Positions 8,161 through 9,012 of a DNA stretch of 64,000 nt are shown one piece after another. Source of the DNA: Bacteroidota bacterium (GTDB lineage: Bacteria > Bacteroidota > Bacteroidia > Chitinophagales > Chitinophagaceae). Every line of letters begins with the position of its first letter. Position 1 is the first letter of the stretch. Position numbers and translations under genes: made by a program. The stretch spans positions 6,424-70,423 of the forward strand of contig JABDGW010000001.1 of NCBI GenBank assembly GCA_013285855.1, in the 5' to 3' direction. The notes under the pieces were generated by a model. That model did not search any database and was not told the DNA's origin. It was given only the letters and a program-made list of their open reading frames with translations.

Positions 8161-8652
8161 TTAATGAGCCGCTATCTGTTCTCTTGATTCATCTACCTGC
8201 ACATCCCTGGAAAAACTTTCTTCAAGCGAAATAATAGTATCAGTTCGTTCAATACCTCTTATTTTTTGCAGCTCATCATGCAACACAAATTTTAGCTGCC
8301 CGATATCTTTACAAATAACTTCTGCAAACATGCTGTAATTACCAGTAGTATAATTAACGCGAACAATCTCAGGAATTTTTTTAAGCTCTTTTGCAACCGC
8401 ATCATATAATGAACTTTTTTCAAGATATATTCCGATAAAAGCAATTACATCGTACCCAAGCAGTTTATGATTGATATGCAATTTGGTGCCGCGTACAATT
8501 CCGGTTTCTTGTAATTTTTTCATGCGTACATGAATGGTACCGCCTGAAACAAATAATTTTTTACCAAGATCTGCGTAGGAAATATTTGCGTTATCCATCA
8601 TTGCCTGAATGATTTGAAAATCCAGTTTGTCAAAATTTGATTTGCCTGTCAT
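8161..8652 (-). CDS. Lrp/AsnC family transcriptional regulator
   Basis: N-terminal HTH (LDFQIIQAMMDNANISYADLGKKLFVSGGTIHVRMKKLQETGIV) plus ligand-binding domain. Confidence 0.9.
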   Translation of the reverse strand: MTGKSNFDKLDFQIIQAMMDNANISYADLGKKLFVSGGTIHVRMKKLQETGIVRGTKLHINHKLLGYDVIAFIGIYLEKSSLYDAVAKELKKIPEIVRVNYTTGNYSMFAEVICKDIGQLKFVLHDELQKIRGIERTDTIISLEESFSRDVQVDESREQIAAH

Positions 8653-8796
8653 ATTTATTTATTTGTTAGATAATTTTCATTCAAATATATAAATGATTAG
8701 ATAATTTCTATAATTTAAAAAATTAACTTGAATAACTTCTATTGAATAAATATGTGTTTTAATATTGCAGTGCAGACGCATATAGTTCTTTACATA

Positions 8797-8968
8797 CTGT
8801 GGGGTGATGAAATCTTTGGCAGACATGCCCTCTCGTCTCGGGGGTGGGGATAACAGGATAAACGGAATGTAGAGCCGACGTTACTTATGGTAAGGCCGAC
8901 CAGGGTTGACCACTAAACTTTGCATTACAGCTAACTGCCTCGTGAAGGTTCGAGTCCTTCCCCTACAG
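8797..8968 (+). ncRNA. Candidate tRNA-like structured RNA with large insertion at the variable-arm position
   Basis: TGTGGGG(8798-8804)/CCCTACA(8961-8967) acceptor with one G-U; D-arm ATG(8807-8809)/CAT(8824-8826) with GG in the loop; CCCTC/GGGGG stem (8828-8844); T-arm GAAGG-TTCGAGT-CCTTC (8944-8960). Followed by a terminator. Confidence 0.55.
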
Positions 8969-8974
8969 CTTAAG

Positions 8975-9012
8975 AAGCCTCAACTATTGTCAGCAATAAG
9001 TTGAGGCTTTTG
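8975..9012 (+). terminator. Rho-independent-type terminator of the tRNA-like RNA
   Basis: AAGCCTCAACT-ATTG / CAAT-AAGTTGAGGCTT hairpin (one bulge) followed by TTTTGTGTTT. Confidence 0.75.

Follow-up and report, generated by a model that had tools for sequence, protein, structure and literature searches.

The window, a stretch of 64,000 nucleotides in all, encodes at positions 8797–8968 (+) an RNA with a tRNA cloverleaf in which ~99 nt lie between the anticodon stem and the T-stem, followed by a hairpin and a T-run. It is one member of an RNA family that is absent from Rfam 15 and whose copies range from 108 to 211 nt in length. The locus comprises the following features.

8161–8652 (−): gene for an AsnC-type transcription regulator with HTH_AsnC-type and AsnC ligand-binding domains (Pfam), divergent from the RNA
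8694–8741 (+): conserved operator-like region, AT-rich and repeated, with putative AsnC sites
8760–8767 (+): Bacteroidota-type −7 promoter element TAATATTG (TAnnTTTG-like)
8784–8792 (+): boxA-like antitermination element AGTTCTTTA in the leader
8797–8968 (+): tRNA-like RNA, positions −1 to 73 (alignment, model R1); position 74 (C) at 8969
8798–8804 (+): acceptor stem 5' strand, positions 1–7 (U1, G2); U1-A72 in 248/252 and G2-C71 in 251/252 distinct copies
8807–8826 (+): D-arm, 3 bp, GG present, no U20a (GGCAGA)
8828–8844 (+): anticodon arm, loop UCGUCUC, 5-bp stem at least 98% paired
8835–8839 (+): aspartate identity bases G34 U35 C36 (8835–8837), variable position 37 (8838), C38 (8839)
8846–8941 (+): branched giant variable arm; 12 of the 14 pairs of V1, V2 and V3 with compensatory changes
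8846–8849/8938–8941 (+): variable-arm stem V1, covarying G-C and A-U pairs
8854–8856/8935–8937 (+): variable-arm stem V2, short
8857–8863 (+): conserved internal loop GATAAAC opposite GCTAA (8930–8934)
8863–8869/8923–8930 (+): variable-arm stem V3, then a junction with hairpins a and b
8876–8898 (+): hairpin a, variable in length and sequence
8901–8915 (+): hairpin b, conserved apex GGGTYGACCAC (125/130 family and 52/54 phage copies)
8944–8960 (+): T-arm, loop TTCGAGT; pair 50-64 is GC in 112, GT in 56, AT in 39 and TA in 35 of 252 copies
8961–8969 (+): acceptor 3' strand (66–72), G73 (8968; 250/252 copies) and encoded C74 (8969)
8975–9011 (+): intrinsic terminator, hairpin and T-run, seen in the sequence and in the same arrangement after most homologues

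The fold was assessed in an alignment of 73 homologues with 43 base pairs, in which changes on both sides of a pair were counted as compensatory. Over these pairs 96.8% of the cells are paired and 20 of the 43 show compensatory changes, while the covariation score of 0.279 exceeds that of shuffled alignments (0.134 ± 0.005, with 0 of 500 reaching it) and that of slid partners (at most 0.086). The case rests on covariation, since the single-sequence folding energy is ordinary (z 0.74). Among 252 distinct copies, acceptor pairs 5–7 and the anticodon and T stems are at least 96.8% paired, as in a tRNA fold, and the T-loop reads TTCGA in 246. An earlier note on this DNA had described an oversized type II tRNA-like RNA with its own terminator; such an RNA is real, and its cloverleaf elements and ~99-nt insert lie where that note placed them. 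The present analysis adds promoter signals, a boxA-like leader, the AsnC neighbour, the aspartate identity set with U1-A72, co-occurrence with GatCAB and phage copies. Two of the earlier observations had to be given up. The similarity of GGGGATAACAGG to 23S rRNA is due to chance, and a 23S-derived insert was rejected, because the matching bases, the middle of the match above all, vary freely among homologues; the GCCGAC direct repeat belongs to a hairpin that varies, and was a red herring too.

Minimal copies of 108–125 nt retain V1, V2 and the internal loop. Tandem second copies of 118–122 nt that lack both arm hairpins occur at loci L070, L015, L043 and L044 and at many others, and genomes G350, G348 and G388 hold 4–5 RNA copies each. 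At locus L277, two 68-nt stretches (2475–2542 and 2793–2860, −) that match only the inner variable arm (model positions 62–138) lie beside a full copy. As a guess, the branched arm may serve to keep the RNA out of translation.

In the window Rfam gave no match that reached the gathering threshold, and around the RNA no credible one even at E ≤ 10; ARAGORN called neither a tRNA nor a tmRNA in the window and none of the long copies submitted to it. With its insert removed, one homologue was called as tRNA-Asp(GTC). Blastn returned full-length matches at 71–94% identity in most of 200 family genomes (best E values across genomes 1e-17 to 1e-93), a degree of conservation that chance would not produce, and the window RNA scores 192.8 bits against the covariance model R1. 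The next-best R1 matches after the family are ordinary tRNA-Leu(GAG) genes, which makes tRNA-Leu(GAG) the likely ancestor of the RNA. Other identities were considered and rejected. The window contains no tmRNA according to ARAGORN and Rfam, the host's ordinary tmRNA lying elsewhere. The earlier description of the RNA as neither tmRNA nor recognizably intron-bearing holds, and the RNA matches no Rfam family. A hammerhead-like GUGAUGA..GUC has the wrong motif order, and the D-arm is tRNA-Leu-like; a tRNA-Sec-like 8-bp acceptor does not fit the D-stem and anticodon. Leucyl-tRNA identity would require A73, whereas the copies carry G73. Recognition by GlnRS, for which U1-A72, G2-C71 and G73 would speak, is contradicted by the anticodon, and the host tRNA-Gln seen has A73. 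Among the papers searched in full text, no published account of the RNA was found. Of the three options that the earlier note had offered, that of a new tRNA-like class, here an oversized type II RNA with a branched variable arm, is supported.

The regulator upstream finds its best solved-structure match in Escherichia coli AsnC (2cg4, 115 bits, against 36.5 for Lrp). At 109 of ~117 family loci and at 28 of 53 order and class loci the RNA is preceded by a divergent AsnC-type regulator gene; the remaining 25 of these 53 are not beside AsnC, which counts against the link. Regulator and RNA are separated by 144 bp, and the divergent E. coli asnC and asnA by 151 bp. Within the operator-like region, where AsnC may bind, many columns are 60–90% conserved, and TTGAA[TA][AT]AT[TC]T occurs in 53 of 114 upstream regions (1.6 expected). 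The arrangement is that of a putative member of an AsnC regulon. Promoter-like sites were found at 104 of 115 loci (23.6 expected), and G[TC]TCTT in 83 of 115 leaders (5.2 expected). At the 3' end, 99% of copies have C directly after G73, and conservation stops there. Because 48 of 53 host tRNA genes likewise encode C74 alone, the RNA is likely to be matured at its 3' end like a tRNA and to receive CCA. Between RNA and terminator, many homologous loci share a recurrent trailer motif, TTTTCTCATGTG.

Searches with R1 identified long copies, often in tandem, in 140 of 249 order genomes and 50 of 295 class genomes, including Chitinophaga pinensis, Niabella defluvii and Segetibacter koreensis. Approximately 98 viral contig stretches carry the RNA as well, several on contigs with terminase, DNA polymerase and DnaB-like genes, and on large viral contigs it is located among tRNA genes and near tmRNA. 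Blastn against named phages and plasmids gave no match to the RNA. The large phage contigs L357, L375, L384, L390, L404 and L406 combine tmRNA (tag peptides such as DVELSTMTFEDAMAFVGADYAVAA), tRNA sets and the RNA, and of 234 ordinary tRNA genes in the phage loci fetched, 211 continue past the discriminator with C74 alone. Another phage RNA family, distinct from this one, has constant tRNA-Leu-like ends, TAGTCAGGTGGCGRAATTGG...ACAGGTTCGAATCCTGTCCTGACTA, around a wholly variable middle. Its members, mostly 71–183 nt in all and mostly not called by ARAGORN, were found in L354, L362, L464 and L474 and in more than 120 IMG/VR stretches, with 104 distinct inserts and up to five per contig; they look like tRNA-bookended RNAs with swapped cargo.

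The bases conserved in the RNA point to aspartate. Strong determinants for aspartate are G73, G34, U35, C36 and C38, with a minor role for the 2-71 pair (PMC9976931), and the determinants of bacterial AspRS include G2-C71 and G10 (PMC9976931, PMC6523644). All 252 distinct copies have U35 and C36, almost all have G34 and C38, and position 37 is T in 246, the anticodon loop of the viral copies being fixed by construction because these, in contrast to the family and class copies, were collected by a pattern containing GTCTCG. All 130 family copies have G34, U35, C36 and C38, and the class copies have G34 in 66, U35 in 68, C36 in 68 and C38 in 66 of 68. G73, G2-C71 and U1-A72 are near-invariant, while pair 4-69 varies and 3-70 varies somewhat. 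From these bases the RNA would be a substrate of AspRS, with only G10 missing from the published bacterial set. Two features speak against an aspartate carrier: A10 replaces G10 in most copies (10-25 is A-U in all family copies), and U1-A72 takes the place of G1-C72, which is said to assist in placing the 3' end within AspRS. Amidation of Asp-tRNA-Asn by GatCAB is conferred by U1-A72 and prevented by G1-C72 plus U20a (PMC9976931). U20a is never present in the RNA, and its bases thus predict a GatCAB substrate. The host tRNA-Asp has G1-C72, U20a, G73 and the loop CTGTCAC, from which the RNA departs at position 37 and partly at 32/33; among the listed host tRNAs, U1 is confined to those for Asn and Gln. 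An elongator would combine U33 with a purine at 37, and the RNA does not: position 37 in class copies is U in 62, G in 3, C in 2 and A in 1, and position 33 in family copies is T in 73, C in 56 and G in 1. The C33 of the earlier note is accordingly present in the window copy as one variant and is not a fixed trait.

The RNA co-occurs with gatB. Among high-quality order genomes, 124 have both RNA and gatB, 2 the RNA only, 34 gatB only and 42 neither (Fisher 6e-20), corresponding to gatB in 124 of 126 RNA-bearing genomes. In the class, the RNA list and the gatB list, compared by reading, give gatB in 50 of 50 RNA-bearing genomes. Within the window's own family, both are present in 47 genomes and both absent from 10 (7 genera), and none has the RNA without gatB. 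Against the link stand G305 and G378, draft assemblies in the order that hold the RNA without gatB, and the many class genomes that have gatB but no RNA. In G038 the RNA copy is cut by a contig end.

Retention of GatCAB in many bacteria with both AsnRS and GlnRS, Bacteroidota included, is a noted puzzle; for some that possess an asparagine synthetase as well, it has been suggested that the complex may be a vestige (PMC4206432). AsnRS is present in 24 of 24 genomes tested and GlnRS in 43 of 49, the latter picked with gatB and RNA status known; GatCAB therefore has no evident charging duty in most tested genomes. Three genomes with gatB and without the RNA were included besides G129, and since none of the three has GlnRS, GatCAB serves a different purpose in them. 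When mapped onto a GlnRS tree of 40 genomes possessing this enzyme, RNA and gatB change together at 6 of 6 inferred transitions. Only four independent co-transitions fall on well-supported branches, so that the tree by itself does not reach significance (p 0.125). G129, RNA-negative by R1, has a blastn match (E 2e-17) and was scored as positive in the tree test, and leaving it out changes nothing. AsnB occurs in many RNA-bearing genomes, so the RNA route is not their only route to asparagine, and the RNA is perhaps needed under a particular condition and not essential. AsnB as a simple complement of the RNA was rejected, since its distribution does not fit; G032, G128 and G197 lack RNA, gatB and AsnB alike (AsnA was outside the comparison).

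These observations are best accounted for, with a probability of about 0.7, by a dedicated non-decoding carrier for tRNA-dependent asparagine synthesis that would be loaded by AspRS, amidated by GatCAB and controlled by AsnC. The RNA would be transcribed from its own promoter, with the opposite AsnC-type regulator as probable controller, and presumably matured like a tRNA. AspRS would read G34, U35, C36 and C38 together with G73 and G2-C71 and attach aspartate, which GatCAB, recognizing U1-A72 and unblocked because G1-C72 and U20a are absent, would amidate to asparagine on the RNA. The product would be kept from translation by the branched variable arm and by the altered anticodon loop, in which 33 is not always U and 37 mostly is; this matters because an Asn-tRNA bearing the anticodon GUC would put asparagine at Asp codons. 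Asparagine would then be freed or passed on.

The same charging chemistry could serve a different end. Staphylococcal cell-wall synthesis uses tRNA-Gly variants, and by analogy the RNA might be aspartylated, perhaps amidated, and donate its amino acid to a non-ribosomal acceptor such as a lipid, a peptide or a protein end. The aspartate identity bases fit this equally and a non-decoding loop would suit any such donor; it is nevertheless unlikely, as no recurrent transferase gene adjoins the RNA at family or class level, and the AsnC neighbour and the gatB link point to asparagine itself. The 'tRNA-derived regulatory RNA' of the earlier note stays in contention as a mimic of tRNA: it might sense or titrate AspRS/GatCAB, or exert feedback on AsnC, with its charging state as the signal. 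Divergence from a regulator gene across conserved operator-like repeats and the elaborate conserved arm would be in keeping with this, yet for an RNA acting only as a decoy it would be superfluous to combine the Asp identity set with the amidation determinant, and placement among phage tRNA and tmRNA genes is more like that of a working RNA, which renders regulation improbable.

That the RNA is an unusual translation adaptor, either a second Asp tRNA or a recoding tRNA, is very improbable, since 33 is often not U and 37 mostly U, hosts and phages already possess ordinary tRNA-Asp, and the joint loss with GatB would be unexplained; the GUC anticodon, T- and D-loops suited to an L-shape and the ARAGORN call on the trimmed homologue are what recommends it. 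Tandem and partial copies and the related RNA in viral contigs might suggest a decayed tRNA or phage attachment-site remnant, the 'decayed integration site' of the earlier note. The covariation refutes this reading: 20 pairs have evolved by compensatory change, and the identity bases hardly vary. The viral copies inspected lie inside phage gene clusters.

If an asparagine carrier is the correct reading, its dedicated RNA substrate would explain why GatCAB is retained alongside AsnRS and GlnRS. There would be a new RNA family spread through a large class of bacteria and the phages of that class, an RNA would occupy the genomic place of a biosynthetic enzyme, and asparagine would be made by tRNA chemistry without a non-discriminating AspRS. 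More broadly, it seems on balance plausible that such bacterial and phage RNAs form a class of reusable carriers for making a free amino acid outside translation, by which phages would supply asparagine during infection.

Several known systems share parts of this picture. Like tmRNA, the RNA is a stable tRNA-like molecule also found in phage tRNA clusters, but it has a D-stem and an anticodon arm, no tag reading frame was seen in it, and the host tmRNA is separate. Allo-tRNAs, tRNA-Sec and other non-canonical tRNAs (PMC7609411) are likewise non-standard tRNAs with a long variable arm, from which it differs by a 7+5 acceptor/T-arm, a possible −1:73 pair, the branched arm, a 3-bp D-stem and the GUC loop. 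The nearest ordinary tRNA by model score, tRNA-Leu(GAG), is type II with a very similar D-arm and has A73, whereas the RNA has G73, a GUC loop and a variable arm of up to ~130 nt. In tRNA-dependent asparagine synthesis, as in Deinococcus, Thermus and Bdellovibrio (PMC4206432), AspRS and GatCAB act on tRNA-Asn; the predicted loading with aspartate and amidation via U1-A72 are alike, while the carrier here would be a separate, non-decoding, AsnC-linked RNA, found in phages too, with Asp anticodon bases, for which an ordinary discriminating AspRS would suffice. Finally, E. coli asnC-asnA offers the same divergence of an AsnC regulator, over ~150 bp, from a gene for asparagine formation, with the difference that the putative target is here an RNA rather than asparagine synthetase A.
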